Positions 2,881-15,518 of a stretch of DNA of 30,401 nt are shown here, one piece after another. Numbering within the stretch: the stretch's first letter is position 1; the number at the start of each line of letters is the position of its first letter. This stretch comes from a virus. Location: positions 1 to 30,401 of the IMG/VR virus record IMGVR_UViG_3300044470_000167. The stretch is one strand, 5' to 3'. The notes below the pieces were generated by a model. The model was given only the letters and a program-made list of their open reading frames with translations. It was not told the origin of the DNA and did not search any database. Made by a program: the position numbers and the translations under genes.

Positions 2881-5523
2881 CTAAAATGCCGAATAGAACG
2901 GAATCCAATACTCGCTGCCGTCTTTGTTAAACACCAGAAACCCAGCGGTACTCGACGGCGGAGTAGAGCCAGCCACTGACACTGGAATCAAGCGCAGAGA
3001 GTGAGTTCCGCCAGCGTCCTGAAGAAATAGTTCTCCAGGAGCGTTGGAGGCCCTCGGGATGCGCACCAAAGCTTGTGCCTCTTGGCCGGTGGTCATTGAT
3101 CCGGAAGCGCCCGCGCTCGTATTTGTAACTTGCACCGTACGCGGATAGGTAGAATCGGAATCACTCACCTTGACATAGTTCGTCCCGTCGATATTGACTA
3201 CCACGGTCCCACTGGTCACGCTGATGGTAGGAGACGTCAGAGACACCGCCGCTGAAATAGTCCCAGCCTGTATCTGAGCCGCCTGGACAGTACCCAATAC
3301 CGCCACGTTCGCCGAAATGGTTCCAGCCTGTATCTGAGACGCCTGGACAGTACCCAATACCGCCACGTTCGCCGAAATAGTCCCAGCCTGTATCTGAGCC
3401 GCCTGGACAGTACCCAATACCGCCACGTTCGCCGAAATGGTTCCAGCCTGTATCTGAGACGCCTGGACAGTACCCAATACCGCCACGTTCGCCGCCAACG
3501 TCCCTGCAACCAAGTCCGCCGGGGCCTGCGAACTGTCCCACGCGCTCCCCGTCGCTGTCTTGTAGATTTTGTATGGCGTTGTGGCGAGATCAACGACTGT
3601 CGATCCTGCCGGATAAGCGGCATTCGGGAGCGTGGGCAAGCCATACACCGCGATGAGGTTCAGCAACACGATGTTTTGGCTGCCATCAAGCCCCATCGTG
3701 TAGCCCAATGCAGCTACCGTCTTTCCGGCTGAGATGGAGAGTCCAGCGCCGTTATTCGCCGCCGTCCCGCCGGCAGCCGTGGCTTGTATTCCGTCCCCGG
3801 CGACTACGCGATCAACCGCCACGTCATCGATCCACCAGTCTCCTGAGATCGCCCCACCGGTCAGGTTGGCCACCCCGAAATACACCAGAGCATAGGCCGC
3901 GTTGGAGGGTGCTACGACGCTCAAAGCAGTGTAGGTCGTCCAGACCGTAGCGGGCACGGGGTACCAGTCCTGAGCCCCGCTGATGTAGGTTCCGGTGGAG
4001 TTGTAAAACCCGACGTGAATATCCGCCACTCCGGTGGCGCCGGCCGAGCATTGATAGACGATCTTCATCGCCAACTGATCGCCCGGCTTGCAAGATACTT
4101 CCTGCGACGCGACGTAAGCGTTCGATGGCGGCGGAAGCGTCACGAAATGCAGGCTGTACGATCCGCCAGGGGTGTGATTATGGCCCGTCACGACCTCGCA
4201 CTGAGGAGAGCATACCCAGCCATTCAGACCAAGTTCGAATCCGGGGTTTACTAACTCGTTTGCTCCCGGAGCGGACAGTGCCCCAGGCTTACCGGTGGGG
4301 TTCAGGCCAATGGTCGGGTCAACGGTGTGGATATTAAGAAACGTAAGGTCCAGCGTCCCGAGCGTGGGCGAAGGAGTGAGGTCGAAATGATCGGCTCCCA
4401 GCCATGCGGTGGTCTGGAGTGTGTATGCTCCCGTTCCGCCCGAAGAGTCGGTGCCTAGATGCGAGACCGCATATAGCTGAAACCGAAACGTGCGGTATAG
4501 GTTAGGGGTTCCATCGTCGTTCGTTACGGACGGGAAAATCCAGTCATCCATCCCGCCTGGAATGCTAACTATAGTCCCCGGAATAGACAAGCCGCCCTGC
4601 TGCCATCCGCTGTCAGTTACCCACTGACCCTGATAAAGGGTAGTGTCGTTATTCGGGAACGTCGGGTCTTCGTGCCACACCCCAAAACCGTCTTCGTATC
4701 CTAGTTGGATGATCAGGAACGAAAACCAGTAATACGGGTCTGCGGAAAGGGACGGTTGTGTCCATTGCAGTAAATTCCACTTCCAGCACTGCACGCCGTT
4801 TACGTTGACGGCGTAGGTCATCAGGTCATCAGTGTCATCGGGAACGAATAAAGCGTCCGTGATATCGTTCGCCGGGCACGGCTGCGCAACCTGGACCGTA
4901 AACGATGCGATGATCGCGGAGACCGGAGGAGTGTCTTGTGCTCCGTCCCCGGAAGCCGCGGCCACGCGCCAATTCCCGTATGCGGGATTGGTCGGTACCC
5001 ACTGGTCCGTTGTAACAACCTGCCCGACCGTTGTCAGTGCATACTGGTCAAGCCATTGAAACGTTCCCGTACCGGGGTCGATCCACAACCGAACTGTAGC
5101 GGGCACGCCCGACATCACCGGAACGATATCGATTAGCATGTGCAGCCCGGCTTCGACGTCCTGGTAGACAGAAGCTGAACGCTCATCGGCGGACAACCCC
5201 GTCACGGTTGCAGCCGTGCCGCTTCCGATGGAGCCCGTACCGGTTACTTGCGCCGGGATGCCCGACTCGCTGCGCTGGATCTCGGTCCAGGAGTACGTGG
5301 AGTTGTCGGTAAGGATGATGGACGTTCCGCCGCCGACGAATGTGTCCGAGGTGGATGGATCGCACTGAACCGTGACGGTGTTGGCGGAGCCATCCACCTT
5401 CTGGACACGCACGGGCTTGTTGGCGGATTGTGAGAACGGAAGAAGCGTGAAGACCACAGGTTGATTCGTGGCGTCACACAGGCGCGTCCCGTCCGTGATC
5501 TTCTCTGTGATAAGCAGTGGCAT
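2881..5523 (-). CDS. large tail fibre with carbohydrate-binding-like module and repeat shaft
   Basis: 880 residues. The N-terminal about 400 residues are beta-rich with Trp-rich strands, probably the part that attaches to the tail tip. Residues about 421-573 resemble a CBM4/9-type carbohydrate-binding sandwich, starting NPGFELGLNGW and ending WWIDDVAVDR, the usual pattern of that fold. Residues about 675-760 are four 20-residue repeats of the type ISANVAVLGTVQASQIQAGT, expected to form a trimeric beta shaft. A small C-terminal domain follows. The gene begins three bases after the megatron gene's stop, so it is very likely its co-expressed fibre. The sugar-binding module suggests a polysaccharide receptor. 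Confidence 0.65.
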   Translation of the reverse strand: MPLLITEKITDGTRLCDATNQPVVFTLLPFSQSANKPVRVQKVDGSANTVTVQCDPSTSDTFVGGGTSIILTDNSTYSWTEIQRSESGIPAQVTGTGSIGSGTAATVTGLSADERSASVYQDVEAGLHMLIDIVPVMSGVPATVRLWIDPGTGTFQWLDQYALTTVGQVVTTDQWVPTNPAYGNWRVAAASGDGAQDTPPVSAIIASFTVQVAQPCPANDITDALFVPDDTDDLMTYAVNVNGVQCWKWNLLQWTQPSLSADPYYWFSFLIIQLGYEDGFGVWHEDPTFPNNDTTLYQGQWVTDSGWQQGGLSIPGTIVSIPGGMDDWIFPSVTNDDGTPNLYRTFRFQLYAVSHLGTDSSGGTGAYTLQTTAWLGADHFDLTPSPTLGTLDLTFLNIHTVDPTIGLNPTGKPGALSAPGANELVNPGFELGLNGWVCSPQCEVVTGHNHTPGGSYSLHFVTLPPPSNAYVASQEVSCKPGDQLAMKIVYQCSAGATGVADIHVGFYNSTGTYISGAQDWYPVPATVWTTYTALSVVAPSNAAYALVYFGVANLTGGAISGDWWIDDVAVDRVVAGDGIQATAAGGTAANNGAGLSISAGKTVAALGYTMGLDGSQNIVLLNLIAVYGLPTLPNAAYPAGSTVVDLATTPYKIYKTATGSAWDSSQAPADLVAGTLAANVAVLGTVQASQIQAGTISANVAVLGTVQAAQIQAGTISANVAVLGTVQASQIQAGTISANVAVLGTVQAAQIQAGTISAAVSLTSPTISVTSGTVVVNIDGTNYVKVSDSDSTYPRTVQVTNTSAGASGSMTTGQEAQALVRIPRASNAPGELFLQDAGGTHSLRLIPVSVAGSTPPSSTAGFLVFNKDGSEYWIPFYSAF
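3254..3493. repeat. perfect 120-bp tandem duplication (four 60-bp units, A-B-A-B)
   Basis: Bases 3254-3373 and 3374-3493 are identical. Each 120-bp copy holds two 60-bp units differing at a few sites (for example GAAATAGTCCC versus GAAATGGTTCC), encoding 20-residue shaft repeats alternating AAQIQ and ASQIQ. Whole repeats keep the frame, so copy number could change fibre length. Confidence 0.95.
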
Positions 5524-5526
5524 CGT

Positions 5527-8500
5527 TTAGCTCACCGTGAGCGATGTGCCCTGGGAGTGGAACAGATACATCTCCCGCATTGGGGCTGAGGAAATCGACG
5601 CTGAGTTCCCGTTGGCGTCTTCCACCTTCACTTGGAACACCCAGACTTGGCCGGACTCGTTTGGCAGATCCGGAACGGCCACCTGCATGGACAGGGCGTT
5701 GTTGGGAATCATCATCGACTTGCTGAGCTTCGCGGGCTCGGTGGACGCTTCGACCACAATCACCAGATCCCCGGTGGCTGGCGTGATAGCCCACTGGCCG
5801 GCCAGGTTCACTGTGGTCTGCGGGCTCCCCGTGACGTCCTTCACCACTTGGACGTCGCCCGCGTCAGCCCCCGTGAGAACCATAACGAGGTAGCCCGCCT
5901 CAATGCCCGTGTCTCCGCCAGGAAAATAGGGGTTGGCTATCTCGGAATCGGTGAACGAGGTCGCGGTGAACGTGGCGTAGTTCCGCATCACCAGCAGGTC
6001 CCCGACGGCCAGCAGGGTGGTCAAGTCCGGAAGCGTGTGGCCGGCGGAGTTCGCCCCGATGGTGAGGGTGAACATCCCTGTGCCTGTATCGGTAAGGGAA
6101 CTGTGGGCGACGGGAAGGTTCAGGACCGGCAGTTCCAGCGACGGGTCGTACTTCGCCAGGAGTGTGGCAGTCCGATTCGCCCACTGGTCCGTGGTCATGC
6201 CGGCGCCGGCGATGGTGACGGTGTTAGACGTTACGCCCGTTACGCCCTGCACTTGCTGAGCCCACGGGCCACCGTGCACTTCCTTGAACCACTGAACCGC
6301 GAGATGGTCCGCCACGGAATCCGGGCCGCCGGGGGTGTTCTCGGCGAACGCCGTGATGACGGCCGACGTCACGCCGGAAGCCACGCCCTGGTTCTGATGC
6401 CATCCCCCAACGCTGCCCGAAGGGGATGCCAGGTAGACGTCGCCGCCGTTCGCCCCTGTCGGCCAGGTGATCGTCACCGCAATGGAACCGGTCCCGCCGG
6501 AAGGAATCACAACCGACACGATGTTCGAGAAGTCCGTGTTCCGGTACGGCGTGGCCGTGTCGAACGCCGCGACCGCCACTTCGTAGACGCCCGCCGCCAG
6601 CGCCCCGGCGGTCCCGACGGTGCACGAAATGACGGGCGGCTGAAGCAGTTGCGATGTGAGGGTGATGGGCGGGATGCCCTTGATTGACACCCCCACGGTT
6701 GGGGCACCGCTGCCGTCGATGCCGTAGACCGGCTGTAAGCCGAACGTGCCCTTGCCTGATGCGCCCTTTGGGTACACTGCATCGCCCGCCAGCGGAGCCA
6801 CGTAACCAGGGGACCACGGGAACGGCGCCCGCGGCCCGGTGATGAAGTGCTCGTAGGCCGCGACCAGCGAGACGTCCTGTTCCATCATGCCGGCGGAATT
6901 GAAGCTGGTGAACTTGAAGTACCGCACCTGCCCGACGTCGCTCCACTGGTACGGCGCTTCGAACATGGCCGGATCGACTTTACAGAACAGCGCGCCGGCC
7001 GCGTGGGCCTGGATGCGCGTTCCGAACACGCCGCGACGAAGATAGGTCAGGCTGTAGGCGCACGCGCTCACCGGCGTGGCCGTCCGGTAGGCCATCAACT
7101 CCTGGTCCACCAGGATCAGCGAGACGTCCTGGTCCGCCTGGGTTTGGCTGTAGGATTCCAGCGTCCCGAGGCTCATGGTCAGGTCAACCGCCAGCGTGCC
7201 AGTAGAATCGGGGTCTGCGTTGGCCGCCAGGCTGGCCGTGAGCACCCCCATGACCGCCGGGCCCGTCTGCCGCCCCACCATGCTGTAGCTGGCCCCGTCG
7301 GCGCTCATGTGGATGGTGGCGCCGCCCCAATGCGGGCCGCCGCTCAGCCCCATCAGGAGGGTGTAGAGCGGAATCGAGGCCATGCCAGCCACAGCCTCAA
7401 AGAACACCGGCGGGTTCACGGATCCGGGGTCCGCGTAGTACCCGGGCCCCATCGCGCCGGTAACCTGCTTCCCGTGCAGCGTCGGCGCCGAAACGGACCA
7501 CGGGAACTCTTCGCACTTCACCGTGAGGGCCAACTGATCGTCTTCCTCGATGGAAACGATGCGCACCGGCTTCTTCACGCACCCTAGGTAGGGATCCGTG
7601 ATGGTCACGATGTCCATCGGCTCCAAGAGGGGGTATATCGCCGCGCTCAACTTGAACTCATAGGTGCAGCCGCCCTCGATATAGCACTTCCGCTGCACCA
7701 GCGTGCGGGCCACCGCCGCGCCCGTCGCCTGGCCGCAGATCATGTGCTGGCTCACCGGCGAGGCCGGCCGCGCGCCGTACAGCCCCACGTGACAAGCGTC
7801 TTCCTCCGTCACCGGCTCGGCGTTGTACTGGTTCGATCTGTTGCACCACTCTACCGTGACTTGGTTGTAGGCGTCCCGCACGCTCGGGCGTGTCAGCTTG
7901 ATCGGCACTTCCCCCGGCGCGCAAAGGAAATCGTCATCGTCCAGGTCGTACTGCGGTTGGGTGTTCGGGGTGAACGTAGAACCGTTTCCGATGGCGCTGG
8001 TGTCGCCGTACGACCGAAACTTCAGCAGGCCCTCGGACCAGAAGCAGTTCCCGTTCTGGACCTCCATGACGTCCTGGATGAACTGGGCGGCCGTCTGCGC
8101 GGAGTCGAGCAAGGGCGACACGAACAACCCGTTGGCCGCGCAGTACGTGTAAAGCTCGCCAGACGGCCCCAGCCCACAGGTGGCGCTATCGGACGGAAGG
8201 TCTGCGGCGTCCCACCCCAGCGGCCCGTATAGCGGGCTGGTGAGCAAATCCTTGATGACGTCGGCCGCGCAGCAATCCACGATGGATCCGCCGAACGGCA
8301 CGAATCCGACAACCTCGAAATTCAGGTTCGGCAACATCCCGGCGGAGCCCAGGTCGAATAGGGCGCTCCCGACGCACGCCAGTTCGGAATAACCGACGGC
8401 CTGGGGCCCGGGGAAGTTACTCACCAGGAAATTCCACGGCGCCTGCCCCAACGTGCCAGGAAATAGCACTAGGTCCAGGTGTACGAGCGGATCTCCGGTG

Positions 8501-9432
8501 GTGCTGAAATTGGACGTCATGACCATGTAGTCGATGGTCATTACGGCGCTGTTGGCCCCGTCCGCCGCGGAGAACAGGTAGTGCGCCCCGCCGCTGTCCA
8601 CGTTCAGGGTGTACTGGCCAAGCCCTGGCGAAGCGGAACCTCCGCCCGTGGCATACGTCACCAGCAGTTCGGAAGTATCGCCGGCGGCCGGAACGGCTCC
8701 GGTTTGCGTGAGGATTGTGGACCCGACGGTGTAGGTGAAATCCACCGCCCCAGACGTGCCGAACGTGGGATACGTGACAGTCGAGAACTGGTCTGTCAAC
8801 TGAACCCCGGTGATGCTGCTGGCCGGTTGCGAGAGCGCAAAGGTCAGGTTGACGCCATCGGCGACGAAGTTGTCCTGTCTTATGTTTGGCACGCCGCCCA
8901 GGATCGGGACCAACTGCATCGGCGTCTGGTGCGTTACCGTGAACGTCCTGGGCCCCGGAGACCCTGAATCGTCCGCCGTTATCGTGGTGGTGTCGGCGCG
9001 CGAAACGCCGTTGTCCAGATACCAGGAGTTCCCGTGCGGGTTGTACCCCGACTCCGGCGTGGTGTACGTGTAGGGCGGCGATGAACCCGCGGAGACGGTA
9101 TACGTGTGGGTCACTCGGAAAAGCTGGTACTGGTCTTTATCGTTCCAGACGTTGACGATGCCGCCTATCGGCCCCTGGCACAACCCAATTAGCAGGGAGC
9201 AGGTGTAGTCGTACTGCTGGTTCGAACCGCTCTTGCCCGATCCGCCGGCCTTTCCACCCATCTTTCCGCCGGAAGTGATCGGGTTAGCGGCCCAGTTCGC
9301 AACCCAAACGCTGTTTCCGGCCAGGCGCCGCCGTCCGTATACGATGGGAATTACCGTGCCATTTAGGCTGCGTTGCACGGCAAGCCCGAACAATTGGCTG
9401 GTGCTGTGCGCGTTCGTGGGCGATTTGAGCAT
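5527..9432 (-). CDS. tail tip attachment protein, gpJ/GTA 'megatron' type
   Basis: 1301 residues. The N-terminus has the family signature: IPIVYGRRRLAGNSVWVANW, a Gly/Lys linker, then YDYTCSLLIGLCQGPIGG. Further on are CAANGLFVSPLLDS with a QDVMEVQNGNCFW strand, and a phage-tail_3-like region (YNQVTVEWCNR; YPLLEPMDIVTITDP). The C-terminal third is fibronectin-like beta domains. Such proteins close the tail tip, trimerise on the hub and carry receptor-binding fibres. It follows the NlpC and hub genes as in Rhodobacter-type gene-transfer agents, but 527 bp of plus-strand material separates it from NlpC. No clear Shine-Dalgarno precedes ATG 9432. Confidence 0.8.
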   Translation of the reverse strand: MLKSPTNAHSTSQLFGLAVQRSLNGTVIPIVYGRRRLAGNSVWVANWAANPITSGGKMGGKAGGSGKSGSNQQYDYTCSLLIGLCQGPIGGIVNVWNDKDQYQLFRVTHTYTVSAGSSPPYTYTTPESGYNPHGNSWYLDNGVSRADTTTITADDSGSPGPRTFTVTHQTPMQLVPILGGVPNIRQDNFVADGVNLTFALSQPASSITGVQLTDQFSTVTYPTFGTSGAVDFTYTVGSTILTQTGAVPAAGDTSELLVTYATGGGSASPGLGQYTLNVDSGGAHYLFSAADGANSAVMTIDYMVMTSNFSTTGDPLVHLDLVLFPGTLGQAPWNFLVSNFPGPQAVGYSELACVGSALFDLGSAGMLPNLNFEVVGFVPFGGSIVDCCAADVIKDLLTSPLYGPLGWDAADLPSDSATCGLGPSGELYTYCAANGLFVSPLLDSAQTAAQFIQDVMEVQNGNCFWSEGLLKFRSYGDTSAIGNGSTFTPNTQPQYDLDDDDFLCAPGEVPIKLTRPSVRDAYNQVTVEWCNRSNQYNAEPVTEEDACHVGLYGARPASPVSQHMICGQATGAAVARTLVQRKCYIEGGCTYEFKLSAAIYPLLEPMDIVTITDPYLGCVKKPVRIVSIEEDDQLALTVKCEEFPWSVSAPTLHGKQVTGAMGPGYYADPGSVNPPVFFEAVAGMASIPLYTLLMGLSGGPHWGGATIHMSADGASYSMVGRQTGPAVMGVLTASLAANADPDSTGTLAVDLTMSLGTLESYSQTQADQDVSLILVDQELMAYRTATPVSACAYSLTYLRRGVFGTRIQAHAAGALFCKVDPAMFEAPYQWSDVGQVRYFKFTSFNSAGMMEQDVSLVAAYEHFITGPRAPFPWSPGYVAPLAGDAVYPKGASGKGTFGLQPVYGIDGSGAPTVGVSIKGIPPITLTSQLLQPPVISCTVGTAGALAAGVYEVAVAAFDTATPYRNTDFSNIVSVVIPSGGTGSIAVTITWPTGANGGDVYLASPSGSVGGWHQNQGVASGVTSAVITAFAENTPGGPDSVADHLAVQWFKEVHGGPWAQQVQGVTGVTSNTVTIAGAGMTTDQWANRTATLLAKYDPSLELPVLNLPVAHSSLTDTGTGMFTLTIGANSAGHTLPDLTTLLAVGDLLVMRNYATFTATSFTDSEIANPYFPGGDTGIEAGYLVMVLTGADAGDVQVVKDVTGSPQTTVNLAGQWAITPATGDLVIVVEASTEPAKLSKSMMIPNNALSMQVAVPDLPNESGQVWVFQVKVEDANGNSASISSAPMREMYLFHSQGTSLTVS

Positions 9433-9963: not shown

Positions 9964-10406
9964 GCTCCGAATGGCGAGAAGAACCTCACCGGACGCCGCT
10001 TGAGAAGAGGCTCCTGGTGAGCATCGGCCAGGCTCACCCGCATCCCGCGCCGGCAGACGTGCATAATTGTCGGCCATGCCTGCATAATGATGGCTCCGTG
10101 CGCCCAGATACGCTCCAACTTGAAGATGGCCATGTCGCCCGGCAGCGGTGCGTCAACCTCGCGCAGGTGCTGCTGGACCAGCCGGAGATATCCCTCATCC
10201 GAGGTGTGTCGCGCCCAATCGGCCGCGAAGTGGGGCAGTGTGGCCAGCACCAGCGGGCTGAGCAGTCCGCATTCGACGTATACAGCGGCTGCGAGTCTCG
10301 CGCAATCCACCCCGACGCCCCGGATGGCGCAATTCATCGCGAAGGGCGTGCCAGTCCAGCGCATCGCTTCGGCCACCACTGCGGCTCGTTGCTCAAATTC
10401 CGTCAT
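9960..10406 (-). CDS. NlpC/P60-type cell-wall peptidase of the tail tip
   Basis: 148 residues. The catalytic layout is visible: Cys35 in GVDCARLAA, His103 in WAHGAII and a third polar residue at His116 (IMHV). These enzymes cut peptide bonds in peptidoglycan stem peptides; in GTA-like and lambda-like tails the enzyme sits at the tip and opens the wall for DNA entry. ATG at 10406 overlaps the hub gene's TGA by four bases, indicating coupled translation, and the order hub-peptidase-megatron is that of RcGTA g13-g14-g15. Slightly short but complete. Confidence 0.8.
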   Translation of the reverse strand: MTEFEQRAAVVAEAMRWTGTPFAMNCAIRGVGVDCARLAAAVYVECGLLSPLVLATLPHFAADWARHTSDEGYLRLVQQHLREVDAPLPGDMAIFKLERIWAHGAIIMQAWPTIMHVCRRGMRVSLADAHQEPLLKRRPVRFFSPFGA

Positions 10407-11758
10407 GCGCTGCCCATCTCCGGACGGGGGATAAAATCAGTCCCTCCGTAGAAAGTAGTATTCCCCACCGGCGCCGGATTCACCGCAGTGAATTTTCCGG
10501 CGCAAGCGTTCCACGTCTTCGGGCAACCGGGGCAAACCGTGAACGCATCGCCGGCCGCCGGCACGCCCGGAAGCGGTGGCAGCACCGAGATCGACCCATC
10601 GTACCCGCTGATGAAACGGGAGATCCCGGCGTTTACGCCGCCGCCATGCGCCGCGTCGTTGAACTTGATGGTCCCCAGGGCGAAGTACCCGCTGGTCGCC
10701 ACCGAGGGCACAGGTTGGCCCTGTACGAGGCCGCTGCCAGGCTCCGTCCACCGGGCACCAGAAGAAAACGGGGCTGAGTTCTGAAGTTGCTCATTTCCGC
10801 TGGGCGACTCCGGACTCCACGCATAATCCGAAATGTAGGGGGGATTAGGAAGGAGGCCGGCCACCGCCGCCACGTAGAGGTTCCACCCGCTCACCCCCAA
10901 CGAGAGCATGGGCGTCGGGATGTTGAACGTCGCCTGGATGTAGTACGCCCCGCTGGTGATGTAAACGGCGCTGGTCGGGCCCGGCAGGCTCTCGCCGTTC
11001 GGCCCGGTGTACGTCACCCGGGCGTAGTACGTGACCGGCGCGTAGAGGTTGTGGCCCGTGGCCGTGGGATGCACGGAGTTCAGCGTCGGGCCGGAAACTG
11101 GCGTCGGAAGCGGGCCTGGGTAGCTGCTGACACTGAGGTTGGTCTGGATCACGCTGGCATTCGATGCCGGCGTTGTGGCCACCGTGCTGGCCACCGTGTA
11201 CGTCGCCAGGTTCACCCCGCACCCCGCATCGCCCAGCGTGTGGCGGCAGCCCGGCCCGTAGAGGTTCCGCGGCACGTTGGTGTTCAGCAGCTCCAGTTTG
11301 TCCTTGCAGGTCAGGACTGCATGAGCGCGGTCCAGTTCCGAAATGTCGGCCACCTGCCCCAAGAACCACTTGTAAATCGCGCCGATGGGGGCGAAGGTGT
11401 TGTCGAGGTACAGCCGATCTACCTGCACGGCGGCGCCGTCGAACTGGCCCTGCGCGATGGCGGCCAGCACGGTGTAGGTTCCGATCTCGGCTTGCGGCGG
11501 CGCGAAGATCGACAGGTCCATCTCGCTGGGCTCCAGCCCGACGGCCATCCGGAGCTTCGACCGGTTTACATACGGCCAGGCGCTGCTGAACGTGTGGCCG
11601 CCCCACACGATGTCCTGATCCCATGAGGCCAAGCGCAGCACTGTGCCGCCCACCAGCGTGATAGTGAATAAATCCACCACCGACGTCACACCACCGACGG
11701 ACGCCAGGGCCGCGGCGTTCAGGTAGGTCACCAGCGCGGAATCGACATTGGTTCTCAT
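10403..11758 (-). CDS. tail hub protein, DUF2163 family, with inserted beta domain
   Basis: 451 residues. The N-terminal half matches the GTA/phage hub pattern: a LFTITLVGGTVLRLASWD strand pair, QDIVWGGHTF, and a Cys-containing segment YGPGCRHTLGDAGCGVN (Cys171, Cys180). The C-terminus has CPGCPKTWNAC (Cys409, 412, 419) and ends FYGGTDFIPRPE, the usual ending of this family. Cysteines at these two places are conserved in hubs, and lambda gpL uses such residues for an iron-sulphur cluster; metal binding here is inferred. Residues about 216-350 are an inserted fibronectin-like domain (YYARVTYTGPNGES; SGWNLYVAA) that makes the protein longer than usual. The ATG has no clear ribosome site and faces the plus-strand RNA element. 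Confidence 0.75.
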   Translation of the reverse strand: MRTNVDSALVTYLNAAALASVGGVTSVVDLFTITLVGGTVLRLASWDQDIVWGGHTFSSAWPYVNRSKLRMAVGLEPSEMDLSIFAPPQAEIGTYTVLAAIAQGQFDGAAVQVDRLYLDNTFAPIGAIYKWFLGQVADISELDRAHAVLTCKDKLELLNTNVPRNLYGPGCRHTLGDAGCGVNLATYTVASTVATTPASNASVIQTNLSVSSYPGPLPTPVSGPTLNSVHPTATGHNLYAPVTYYARVTYTGPNGESLPGPTSAVYITSGAYYIQATFNIPTPMLSLGVSGWNLYVAAVAGLLPNPPYISDYAWSPESPSGNEQLQNSAPFSSGARWTEPGSGLVQGQPVPSVATSGYFALGTIKFNDAAHGGGVNAGISRFISGYDGSISVLPPLPGVPAAGDAFTVCPGCPKTWNACAGKFTAVNPAPVGNTTFYGGTDFIPRPEMGSA

Positions 11759-11760
11759 GG

Positions 11761-11766
11761 TATAGT
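11761..11766 (+). promoter_or_regulatory. -10 like TATAGT upstream of the tRNA-like element
   Basis: TATAGT lies ten bases before position 11776, the first base of the acceptor-like stem, so transcription could begin at or near the mature 5' end. No convincing -35 hexamer at 16-18 nt. Confidence 0.3.
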
Positions 11767-11775
11767 GGTTTCGGA

Positions 11776-11933
11776 TGTTCTGTAGATCAATGGAAGAAGA
11801 CCAGAGCGCTCGCGGCAGTCGATGCAGTCAATGCTACACGGATCAGCGAGTCCAAAGGAACGTGACACGGCCGTTCACGCCCGGAAGCAAACTGCCGGCG
11901 CGGGAGTTGCAGGTTCGAGTCCTGCCAGAACAT
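11776..11933 (+). ncRNA. interrupted or expanded tRNA-like element (about 158 nt)
   Basis: The ends look like a tRNA. TGTTCTG (11776-11782) pairs perfectly over 7 bp with CAGAACA (11926-11932), followed by discriminator T. T8 and A9 follow, then GATC-AATGGAA (11785-11795) with A14 and G18G19 in place, like the 5' half of a D arm. At the 3' side GCAGG-TTCGAGT-CCTGC (11909-11925) is a perfect 5-bp T arm with consensus loop. Between them lie 113 nt where a tRNA needs about 27, so some 80-86 nt are extra. The D stem is not closed next to its loop; GATC at 11841-11844 could close it. CGTGA...TCACG (11861-11879) forms an internal hairpin. No anticodon arm could be assigned. It may be a tRNA gene with an insertion, a tRNA-derived RNA, or a decayed gene. 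A 62-codon ORF (11775-11963) overlaps it and is less convincing. Confidence 0.5.
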
Positions 11934-11937
11934 CCTC

Positions 11938-12603
11938 TCAGGCCCGCACGCTCTGAAGAGTGACTTTGCGGCATTCCCAGATCCCCGCCACGTTCCCCAG
12001 CCGGCCGGCCGGTTGCGCCTGATCAACTCCCATGACCGACATCTCCAGTTCGTCGCCTTCCACTCGCACCCGCCAGAAGTACCCGAAGTCGGCGGTGATA
12101 AGCCCTGTTGGAGCATAGCCGGTGTCGAACGTCAGCAGCCCGGTGGATGAGACGCCGTAGTGGATCGACTGGAGCACCCCCGCCACGTAGATGTTGACCG
12201 CCGGCGCGGGTGCCAGGGTGGTCGTGATCCCGTTGATGTCGTAGATCGGCTGCGTCTGCGCGCCATTCGAGCGCTGGAGTTGGAACGCGAGGGTAACGCC
12301 GTTGCCCGTCCCGATAATCTGGTTCGAGACGTAGCAGTCGTTCTCATCGTAAAGCAGGAAACTGTCGTACGGGCCACTCCGCGCCCCCAGAAATCCGAGG
12401 AAGTTCTGGTAGTCGGAAATGGAACCGTTTTGATTCAGATACGTGAATATGAGGTCCCACTGCCAGCGCGGATACTGATAGTTCGGCGAGCGCACTTCCA
12501 TCCCGCTGGCGCTGGTCTGCTGGATTGTGGACGTCTGCATTCGGCGCGTGATCGGGAAGGTGAGACCCGCCATGCCCACGCCCGTGAAGATCGCATTCGA
12601 CAT
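11938..12603 (-). CDS. DUF2460 family distal tail (Dit-like) protein
   Basis: 221 residues. The N-terminal region PITRRMQTSTIQQTSASG and YPRWQWDLIF matches the TIGR02217/DUF2460 pattern, as do FLGFLGARSGPYDSFLLYD and VSSTGLLTFDTGYAPTG. In RcGTA this is g12, the distal tail ring that joins the tube to the hub. The ATG overlaps the tape-measure stop as TGATG, so the two are translationally coupled. It is directly followed by the plus-strand tRNA-like element instead of by the hub gene. Full length for the family. Confidence 0.85.
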   Translation of the reverse strand: MSNAIFTGVGMAGLTFPITRRMQTSTIQQTSASGMEVRSPNYQYPRWQWDLIFTYLNQNGSISDYQNFLGFLGARSGPYDSFLLYDENDCYVSNQIIGTGNGVTLAFQLQRSNGAQTQPIYDINGITTTLAPAPAVNIYVAGVLQSIHYGVSSTGLLTFDTGYAPTGLITADFGYFWRVRVEGDELEMSVMGVDQAQPAGRLGNVAGIWECRKVTLQSVRA

Positions 12604-15518
12604 CAGAATGCCGCCTGTCCGGCCGGCGCATAAGGCCGAATCACTTCGCGCATCAGCTTCTTGAGTTGCGATTTGTTCGCCATGATGGAGCCAGGAGATT
12701 CACCCGCGGCGGCATGGTAGGCCACGTTGTAGTGATGGTTCACCGTGTTACCGCCGGAGTTGTAGTTCTTCGTCTGGTCTGCCGTCAGAACCTTTTCCCC
12801 TTTGTGCAGAAACATCGGGAACGGTCCGCCGGTGGATGGCATGTCGGCGCCCTTCTCGGCGAATCCCGCCACGGCAGCGAACGCGGCGGCCGCGGCCTCT
12901 GGAGCCAGATACGGCCCTACCACCGGAATGGCGGTCACAGCGGCATAGGTATTCTTGAACGCCGTGCGCGCGTCGGTCATGCCCATTTCCGTGCCGACCA
13001 GTTTGTGGATAATGGCCTGGGCAATCATTTGGGTGACGGCCCGCTCGATGTGCATTATCATCTGGTCCGCCATCTCGCGGAAGGACTGAGCCATGGACGC
13101 GGCGAAAGACTTCCCGCCTTTGATCCATGAGTTGAACCCGGAGTCGAACGCGCTGGAAATGGAGGTGATGCCCTTCACCATGGTGTCCTGCATCGTGGTC
13201 ATAGCCGTTTTGGATTCGATATTCAGCTTCGCCATGGCGGCCAGGTACTTATCGTTCAACGCTTGGATTTTTGCTTGAGCTGCCGCAACGGCTCCCAGGT
13301 CCGGCCCACCCATCGGCCCCGCCGTCTGCGCTTTGGTGAGTTCCCCCATAGCAGAACCTGCCTGCGATTTGTACTCCTGCGTCTCCAGGTCTTTCAACTG
13401 CTGGACCTTCGCTGCTTGGCTGATCCGGTGGTTCTTCGCATCGTCTTCCACCGACGCCTTATTGGCATCGTAGACGCGCGTAGCGTGCGCTATCTCGGCG
13501 TTGGCCATGATCTCGGCCGCCCGGTTCGCTTCTTCCATGCGCCGCTTTCCAAGCGCCAGCTCCTTCTCGAATGACTTCTGCCCCTCGGAATCGACGCGGT
13601 TCCAGAACTCTTGCATGTTCTTGACCATCGCGTCGTTGTTCTTATCCTGCGCTTCCAAGTCCTTGTTCCCAAGTTCCGCAAGGGTCTTCGTGTGTTGTGC
13701 CGCAAGCACCGCCAGCGTGTCGTCAACCTCCGCTGGCTTATGCTCTGCCTTGGCAGTAGCGGCTTTCAGCGCGGCCACCTTCTCGGCGGCCTTCCGCTCG
13801 ATCTCGTAACGCTCGTTCTCCGCCCGTACCAAAATCTCGTTTTCGAACCACTGCCGCTCTTCGGCCGACATCTTCCCGATGGCGAGCGTCGCTTTGTCGG
13901 CATCCCGCCGAATGTCCACGCCCAGCAGCGCCACCTTCTTCTCGCCCTCGATCTGCTTCTCCAGTGCGGCGTTCTTCTCGGCAACGCCGGAGCCGGACTC
14001 GGACTTCTCGGCGGCCTTGATCTTTTCGTGAATTTCTGCAATCTGCTTACGCAGCCCAACTTCTTCCGCTGCTCCGGAGGCCGTAAACGCTCCAGGTTTT
14101 TCCAGAGCAGTTACCAACTTCTTATCAGCATCCTCCGCCATGGAAAGGGCGGCCTTGAGACCTTCCAGCGAACCGGCCTGGCCTGCCTTCCACCGATCCG
14201 CAGCAGCAGCAAGAGCGTCAGCGGATTTCTGCGCAACCGCCAACCCAGGGGCCGCGGCAGCCGATGTTGCCGCTGAAAGAGGGTCATACTTCGGGCCCAT
14301 GAATCCAGGTTCGGGCTTTCCACCAGTGGGAACTGGCATGGAACCAACCGCTCTGAGGGCGGCGAGTTGTGCTTTGCCTACAGTGGAGAACCCAGACCAC
14401 ACCGCCTCTCCCCATCCTTTGGCGAGAGTGCTGATGCCGCTGAACCCGGAAGAGATAGCACCCGCCAACGTCCCTTGCTTGGCCGAATCCTCCCCTTCGT
14501 CCGAGACCATGCCACGGACGACGTTGACAACCATCTCGACAATCGGTGATAACTTCGCCGCAAATCCCTCCTTCAGGTGATCCCACGCGATCGCCAACTC
14601 GTTGATCTTCTCGCGGGCCTCAATCATGCTCTGGACGCCACGCTCATCGACAACGCCGCCCAGGCTATCGATGGCCTCCGAGAGCCGGTCGTAGTTCTCA
14701 ATGAGGGGCATGATCTGGAAGGATGCGCGCCCCAGCAGAACGTGCGCCTCTTCGACGCGTTTCGTCTTGTCAGGGATCTCGGAGAGGTTCTGAAGGACTT
14801 GCAGCAGCGCCCCGCCAGTGTCCGTGGCGGTCACGCCGATCTCCTTCAGTGCCTCGGCTTGCTTCTTACCCGCCCCCGTAGGATCTTCCAACGCCTCGGC
14901 CAACCGGAAGGATGCCCGCGCGAGCCCGCCAACGTCGGCATCGACTATGCGCGCCATCTCGCCGAGCTTCTTGGTCTGCTCGAATCCCAGGCCAAGCATG
15001 TTGGCGAAGTTCTGAGTGCCACGCGCGGCGGCGCCCTCTTCGTTTACGAGGTCGTAGGTTTCCTTCCCCAGGAAGGCCATCGAGCTGGCAACTACGGTAA
15101 TGCCAGCGCCGACTGGACCCAGTGTCTCCAGAAAGCTGGTGGCCGTATCGCCGGCCGCTTCCAGCGGATGCTTGATGAAATCGCCAACCTTTTCGGCGAA
15201 TCCCTCAAACATCCCGCCGGCCTTCTGCGCCTCTTCCCCAACGGCCTGAACGGCCGGCTTCAGCGCTTCCGCCGCCGCGGTGGCTTGCCGGTGCTGGTCC
15301 GCCCACGCATCCAGGCCCGCGCCCATGCTGCTCATCTGGGAAGCCGCGTCCTGCTGCGCTTGCACGTTGGCCGCGATCCGATCCGTGAAGGAATCGAACA
15401 CCGACCCCAGGGAAGTGAGCTTGGACGCGTAGTCGTCGGCAGACGCGGCGCCCTGCGCGAATGCCGGACTCGCTTCGTCCGTCCCCGTGATTTTTACTTG
15501 GACTTGATCGTCGGGCAT
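12603..15518 (-). CDS. tape measure protein
   Basis: 971 residues, by far the longest helical protein here. It begins with VQVKITGTDEASPAF, has long Ala/Lys/Glu-rich coiled-coil stretches (about 430-800), a hydrophobic segment near 160-185 (ITVVASSMAFLG) and another near 870-900 (AIPVVGPYLAPEAAAAAFAAVAG), and ends with GGPFPMFLHKGEKVLTA, a motif common near tape-measure C-termini. At the usual about 1.5 angstrom per residue the tail would be about 145 nm. It follows the chaperone pair and precedes the distal tail gene, the canonical order. The ATG at 15518 lies 11 bases after the preceding stop and has a weak ribosome site. Confidence 0.9.
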   Translation of the reverse strand: MPDDQVQVKITGTDEASPAFAQGAASADDYASKLTSLGSVFDSFTDRIAANVQAQQDAASQMSSMGAGLDAWADQHRQATAAAEALKPAVQAVGEEAQKAGGMFEGFAEKVGDFIKHPLEAAGDTATSFLETLGPVGAGITVVASSMAFLGKETYDLVNEEGAAARGTQNFANMLGLGFEQTKKLGEMARIVDADVGGLARASFRLAEALEDPTGAGKKQAEALKEIGVTATDTGGALLQVLQNLSEIPDKTKRVEEAHVLLGRASFQIMPLIENYDRLSEAIDSLGGVVDERGVQSMIEAREKINELAIAWDHLKEGFAAKLSPIVEMVVNVVRGMVSDEGEDSAKQGTLAGAISSGFSGISTLAKGWGEAVWSGFSTVGKAQLAALRAVGSMPVPTGGKPEPGFMGPKYDPLSAATSAAAAPGLAVAQKSADALAAAADRWKAGQAGSLEGLKAALSMAEDADKKLVTALEKPGAFTASGAAEEVGLRKQIAEIHEKIKAAEKSESGSGVAEKNAALEKQIEGEKKVALLGVDIRRDADKATLAIGKMSAEERQWFENEILVRAENERYEIERKAAEKVAALKAATAKAEHKPAEVDDTLAVLAAQHTKTLAELGNKDLEAQDKNNDAMVKNMQEFWNRVDSEGQKSFEKELALGKRRMEEANRAAEIMANAEIAHATRVYDANKASVEDDAKNHRISQAAKVQQLKDLETQEYKSQAGSAMGELTKAQTAGPMGGPDLGAVAAAQAKIQALNDKYLAAMAKLNIESKTAMTTMQDTMVKGITSISSAFDSGFNSWIKGGKSFAASMAQSFREMADQMIMHIERAVTQMIAQAIIHKLVGTEMGMTDARTAFKNTYAAVTAIPVVGPYLAPEAAAAAFAAVAGFAEKGADMPSTGGPFPMFLHKGEKVLTADQTKNYNSGGNTVNHHYNVAYHAAAGESPGSIMANKSQLKKLMREVIRPYAPAGQAAF

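Follow-up and report, generated by a model that had tools for sequence, protein, structure and literature searches.

The nearest known analogue of the tRNA-like element described here is RNA C of the T4 phage (rnaC, also known as 'species 1 RNA'), and the likeness between the two is one of architecture only. The annotation of RNA C is that of a small stable RNA, 139 nt long. It is a late RNA, detected on Northern blots, and its function is unknown (PMC9697503). When six homologues were aligned, it was observed that RNA C combines a T arm and an internal hairpin with an acceptor-like stem that contains two U-U mismatches. With the mismatched columns left out, 99% of the cells in these helices are paired, against about 41% when the helices are slid, and changes on both sides occur in all three helices. 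Thus, the alignment and the Northern evidence together indicate that a phage RNA in which the top half of a tRNA is combined with some other body does exist. All the homologues of RNA C that were found are T4-like.

The present element lies on the plus strand, at 11776-11932, of a 30.4-kb IMG/VR virus record, the whole of which was analysed and is called the window. Its parts and its surroundings are as follows.

10403-11758, minus strand: hub/tail assembly gene (phrog_778, PF09931, PF09356).
11758-11766, plus strand: possible extended -10 promoter, TG-G-TATAGT, some 7 nt upstream of the stem; picked out by eye, weak, with no -35 match.
11759-11937, no strand: intergenic cargo slot of 179 nt, with a wholly different sequence in the sister contig; blastn against contigs L002 (the sister) and L004 breaks at 11760 and 11942.
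11773-11782, plus strand: 5' strand of the closing stem, made of the acceptor-like TGTTCTG (11776-11782) and three outer pairs (GGA); read from the sequence, with perfect pairing to 11926-11935.
11783-11802, plus strand: T8, A9 and a D-arm-like segment, GATC-AATGGAAGAA-GACC, with A14, A15 and G18G19.
11803-11908, plus strand: middle of 106 nt, which replaces an anticodon arm and variable loop of about 22-23 nt, an excess of about 85 nt; its 3' end is GGGAGTT, including T48.
11909-11925, plus strand: T arm, GCAGG-TTCGAGT-CCTGC, read from the sequence; this half matches many phage tRNA genes (blastn).
11926-11935, plus strand: 3' strand of the closing stem, CAGAACA and TCC, pairing with 11773-11782.
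11938-12603, minus strand: DUF2460 gene (PF09343).

Along the plus strand, the element runs TGTTCTG-TA-GATC-AATGGAAGAA-GACC, then the 106 nt, then GCAGG-TTCGAGT-CCTGC-CAGAACA. The acceptor-like stem, formed by TGTTCTG at 11776-11782 and CAGAACA at 11926-11932, has 7 bp and no mismatch. The elbow nucleotides stand in the tRNA register, with T8 and A9 at 11783-11784, A14 at 11789 and G18G19 at 11792-11793. The preliminary description of this DNA had listed the stem, these nucleotides and a T arm with the consensus loop, and each was indeed found in the sequence. Two further features can be added to that list. The acceptor-like stem lengthens outwards into a 10-bp inverted repeat (GGATGTTCTG at 11773-11782 and CAGAACATCC at 11926-11935), and the Levitt partners, A15 (11790) and T48 (11908), are compatible. 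The acceptor and T pairs are intact in 12 of 12 cases, as is every elbow position tested; the D stem, GATC/GACC, is imperfect, with 3 of its 4 pairs. The folding energy of the whole element is not better than that of shuffles (z -0.40), and the folding of the antisense strand is not unusual.

Like RNA C, the element is longer than a tRNA, has an acceptor-like stem directly after a perfect T arm and encloses a non-tRNA body. However, RNA C is part of a tRNA cluster, its acceptor-like stem contains two central U-U mismatches and the T8/A9/A14/GG elbow is absent from it; a blastn search against phages revealed no sequence homology between the two. In tmRNA, too, an acceptor stem and a T arm close a long non-tRNA insert, but a phage tmRNA (in contig L024) measures 372 nt, of which the element has less than half, and the element has T3-A70 in place of G3-U70. 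Neither the ARAGORN tmRNA search nor the Rfam scan matched tmRNA to the element. The Rfam scans, both at gathering thresholds and permissive, returned only a chance match of the T arm to YrlA, a bacterial Y RNA with a tRNA-like module (14.4 bits, E = 3, where the gathering score is 69).

A cluster of tail genes, for tape measure, DUF2460, hub and other tail proteins, lies on the minus strand of the window. As noted in the earlier account, the element sits in the gap between the DUF2460 and hub genes and is opposed to this operon. It stands alone, no other tRNA gene being found in the window by ARAGORN, and it fills nearly the whole 179-nt slot (163 nt when the 10-bp repeat is counted). The sister contig, IMGVR_UViG_3300036906_000092, whose locus was located by two protein searches, shares 95-97% identity with the window up to 11760 and 98.7% from 11942 onwards. 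Its slot (L002 4667-5955), in contrast, holds about 1,290 nt (a 1,293-nt insert) unrelated to those of the window; this sequence has ORFs in both orientations, none with a family match. In more distant relatives, DUF2460 and hub are nearly adjacent or overlap (a gap of 9 nt in L005; others among L008-L021). Because the insert of the sister is unrelated and the distant relatives are nearly gapless, the gap is an insertion slot whose content differs between the two near-twins. The DUF2460/hub gap is, in short, a cargo or exchange slot.

Some other observations were made around this slot. Two ORFs of the sister cargo, at L002 4630-4980 (plus) and 5152-5957 (minus), have no Pfam, PHROGs or PADLOC match, and a promoter-like pair, TTGCAG-N17-TATAAT, lies at the start of the sister insert. 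A likeness around TATAGT.GTTT beside the hub start in the window and the sister was not significant (700 of 5000 shuffles) and was set aside. The tape measure gene holds a second stretch without blastn similarity, about 13571-15465 in the window and 1430-3033 in L002 (1,894 and 1,603 nt), between flanks that are 98% identical. On the plus strand of the window, a sigma-70 two-hexamer scan gave no promoter, and a clear terminator was not found.

The reading that is tentatively preferred, at less than even confidence, is that of a gene for a tRNA-derived 'top-half' RNA, acquired as cargo in the DUF2460/hub gap and opposed to the operon. In such an RNA, the intact top half, namely the acceptor stem, the T arm and the elbow joining the D and T loops, would allow the host tRNA machinery to process and stabilise the molecule. 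The host factors would be RNase P, the enzymes that modify the T loop and, possibly, those of CCA addition. As the anticodon half is replaced by a body of about 106 nt, the predicted RNA would be unable to decode. Its function may reside in the body or in mimicry of the tRNA elbow, as may hold for T4 RNA C. Transcription, processing by tRNA enzymes, stability and function are all predictions from the sequence.

In favour of such an RNA gene, the acceptor and T pairs and the elbow are intact despite the lack of a recognisable anticodon arm. Nearly the whole slot is the element, and the slot is exchanged between near-twins. There is also a precedent in T4 RNA C and in the over-long elements of two phage contigs, L036 and L037. 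Against it stand the lack of any homologue in the searches made, the unremarkable folding, the absence of a clear plus-strand promoter or terminator and the mismatch in the D stem. The proposal of a tRNA-derived RNA in the preliminary description stays the best reading, with elements that are intact and exceed chance; the interpretation given there is, as a whole, partly supported.

The over-long elements deserve a description of their own. Contigs L036 and L037 come from uncultivated phages and were fetched by the acceptor pattern. In their tRNA arrays, tRNA-like sequences with a perfect acceptor and T arm occur at 8414-8522 on the minus strand (L036, 109 nt) and at 4910-5034 on the plus strand (L037, 125 nt). 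Their elbow positions are largely intact, and both were missed by ARAGORN at default settings as well as by Rfam. Similarly, contig L032 has, at 4994-5095 on the plus strand, a probable phage tRNA of 101 nt with about 26-30 extra nucleotides, probably an intron or insert, which is missed by default ARAGORN and scores 43.3 bits with the Rfam tRNA model. All three share with the element a perfect 7-bp acceptor, T8, A14, GG, a perfect T arm and a middle region exceeding that of a tRNA in length. Unlike it, they are located within tRNA arrays and are shorter (101-125 nt), and Rfam still identifies that of L032 as a tRNA. A further candidate, L029 8831-8954 on the minus strand, has 124 nt and a T-loop-like hairpin and adjoins a tRNA-Arg; Rfam gave no match to it, and phage records contained no relative. 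Its closing stem is 17 bp long and it lacks T8 and A14, and it was not counted as a second example.

No homologue of the element was found in any search made, whether of viral contigs, phage records or genomes. Exact and gapped pattern scans of the viral contigs for the T arm or the acceptor gave just ordinary tRNAs, chance matches and the L029 sequence. By blastn of the window region against phages, only matches of T-arm length were listed, and a hub-profile scan of genome contigs gave no relatives.

A dead tRNA gene, whose anticodon arm was destroyed by insertion or recombination and whose remainder has not yet decayed, is nearly as likely as a functional RNA; taken singly, it is possible rather than probable. 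A one-off recombined remnant of this kind would look identical to an RNA gene. In its favour, the acceptor TGTTCTG/CAGAACA is identical in tRNA-Gln genes of uncultivated phages (L028, L035), the following TGTAG is also similar, and GTAGATCAATGG is identical to the D-arm string of a real phage tRNA-His (L024). These tRNA-Gln and tRNA-His genes have a normal anticodon arm and length, whereas the element has its 106-nt middle and no recognisable anticodon. The solitary position of the element suits a remnant, as does its absence from the sister, which is 95-99% identical on both sides; the gain or loss must, because of that absence, be recent. However, the anticodon arm should be rebuildable after a simple insertion, and no restorable class I arm was found. 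Random decay is also not expected to spare all of the acceptor, T-arm and elbow positions. Further, canonical tRNAs in the fetched phage arrays have 0-2 pairs beyond the acceptor, as against the 10-bp closing stem here.

The element is not an ordinary tRNA. The acceptor, T arm and elbow of a canonical tRNA are present; an anticodon arm with 5 bp, a 7-nt loop and U33 is lacking, as is a covariance score at or above the gathering threshold. ARAGORN at default settings reported no tRNA in the window, the element included. A tRNA covariance model had been suggested as a check in the preliminary description, and the Rfam tRNA model (RF00005) gave no match to the element up to E = 10. A fusion of two tRNAs, which the length of 158 nt might recall, was rejected, since the T-arm descriptor finds just one T arm with a partner.

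On balance, the element is unlikely to be a functional tRNA whose anticodon region is interrupted by an intron of about 62-85 nt. When introns were allowed, ARAGORN called a tRNA-Ala(CGC) with a 62-nt intron, and its score lies roughly in the top 1% of those for shuffled middles. The call requires an oversized variable region of about 28 nt and has 4 of 5 anticodon pairs, and a call of some kind was made in 253 of about 300 shuffled middles (about 84%). The probable tRNA with an insert in L032 is a point in favour of this reading; the literature searched gave nothing specific on intron-bearing phage tRNAs or on tRNA-like phage RNAs. Enumeration of single excisions yielded no class I anticodon arm with 5 of 5 pairs, and the two solutions with 4 pairs both lack U33. 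Class II solutions were no better than shuffles in a home-made test, which is weak because it failed to single out the L032 control as well. Rfam called no group I intron. The earlier suggestion of a tRNA with a small intron is weakly supported: the ARAGORN score speaks for it; the missing class I excision, the frequent calls on shuffles and the silence of the Rfam tRNA model speak against it.

It is very unlikely that the locus is a protein-coding gene. A 62-codon frame (11775-11963, plus strand) is open across the element, but it matches nothing in Pfam, PHROGs or PADLOC and has no relatives among viral contigs or phage records. Since the window is GC-rich and has 182 ORFs of at least 60 aa, a single frame of this kind is no surprise. 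The element is not evidently coding.

A chance resemblance to a tRNA is just as improbable. It was modelled with 800 Mb of first-order Markov sequence of the window's dinucleotide composition, which contained 2,700 T arms, 36 of them with a perfect 7-bp acceptor partner within 220 nt. For the T arm and acceptor together, this amounts to 0.0027 per window on both strands, or about 1 window in 370, which is not negligible when many windows were read. However, with T8, R9, A14 and GG added, the full descriptor was not found once in the 800 Mb, and neither the window nor the first 150 kb of related loci contains another match to it. Given these counts, a chance origin, already judged unlikely in the preliminary description, is unlikely even for many windows read; moreover, the element occupies a non-coding, exchanged slot. 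That the sequence really derives from a tRNA is much more probable than chance.

In phages, the T arm and 3' end of a tRNA are often part of the attP site, and the T-arm string is common to many bacterial replicons. The pattern GGTTCGANTCCNNNCAGAACA occurs 44 times in 84,980 species genomes, never with the T stem of the element paired; the true tRNAs among the 44 are Bacteroidetes tRNA-Gln with other T stems, and phage tRNA-Gln genes in viral contigs share this acceptor. As a paired tRNA half, GCAGG-TTCGANT-CCTGC-CAGAACA is found in none of the 84,980 genomes (contigs of at least 3 kb). An attachment site that copies a host tRNA gene at its 3' end, the landing site for integration once envisaged, is hence contradicted so far as the tests reach and is the least credible reading, as it would also make the matching 5' half unnecessary, and no integrase was found among the 20 ORFs scanned with Pfam.

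More speculatively, and with low confidence, phages may carry a loose class of RNAs that keep the acceptor, T-arm and elbow half for processing and stability in the host and have diverse bodies. The element would be a stand-alone, exchangeable tail-operon cargo of this class, perhaps a decoy without a target for the host defences that cut anticodons. If the element is transcribed, it would suggest that RNA C, far from being peculiar to T4-like phages, exemplifies a design that unrelated phages use: the top half of a tRNA is borrowed for processing and stability, and another body is attached. Standard tRNA finders would, in that case, miss such RNAs. The exchanged slot means, besides, that cargo is accepted even at the usually tight DUF2460/hub junction.
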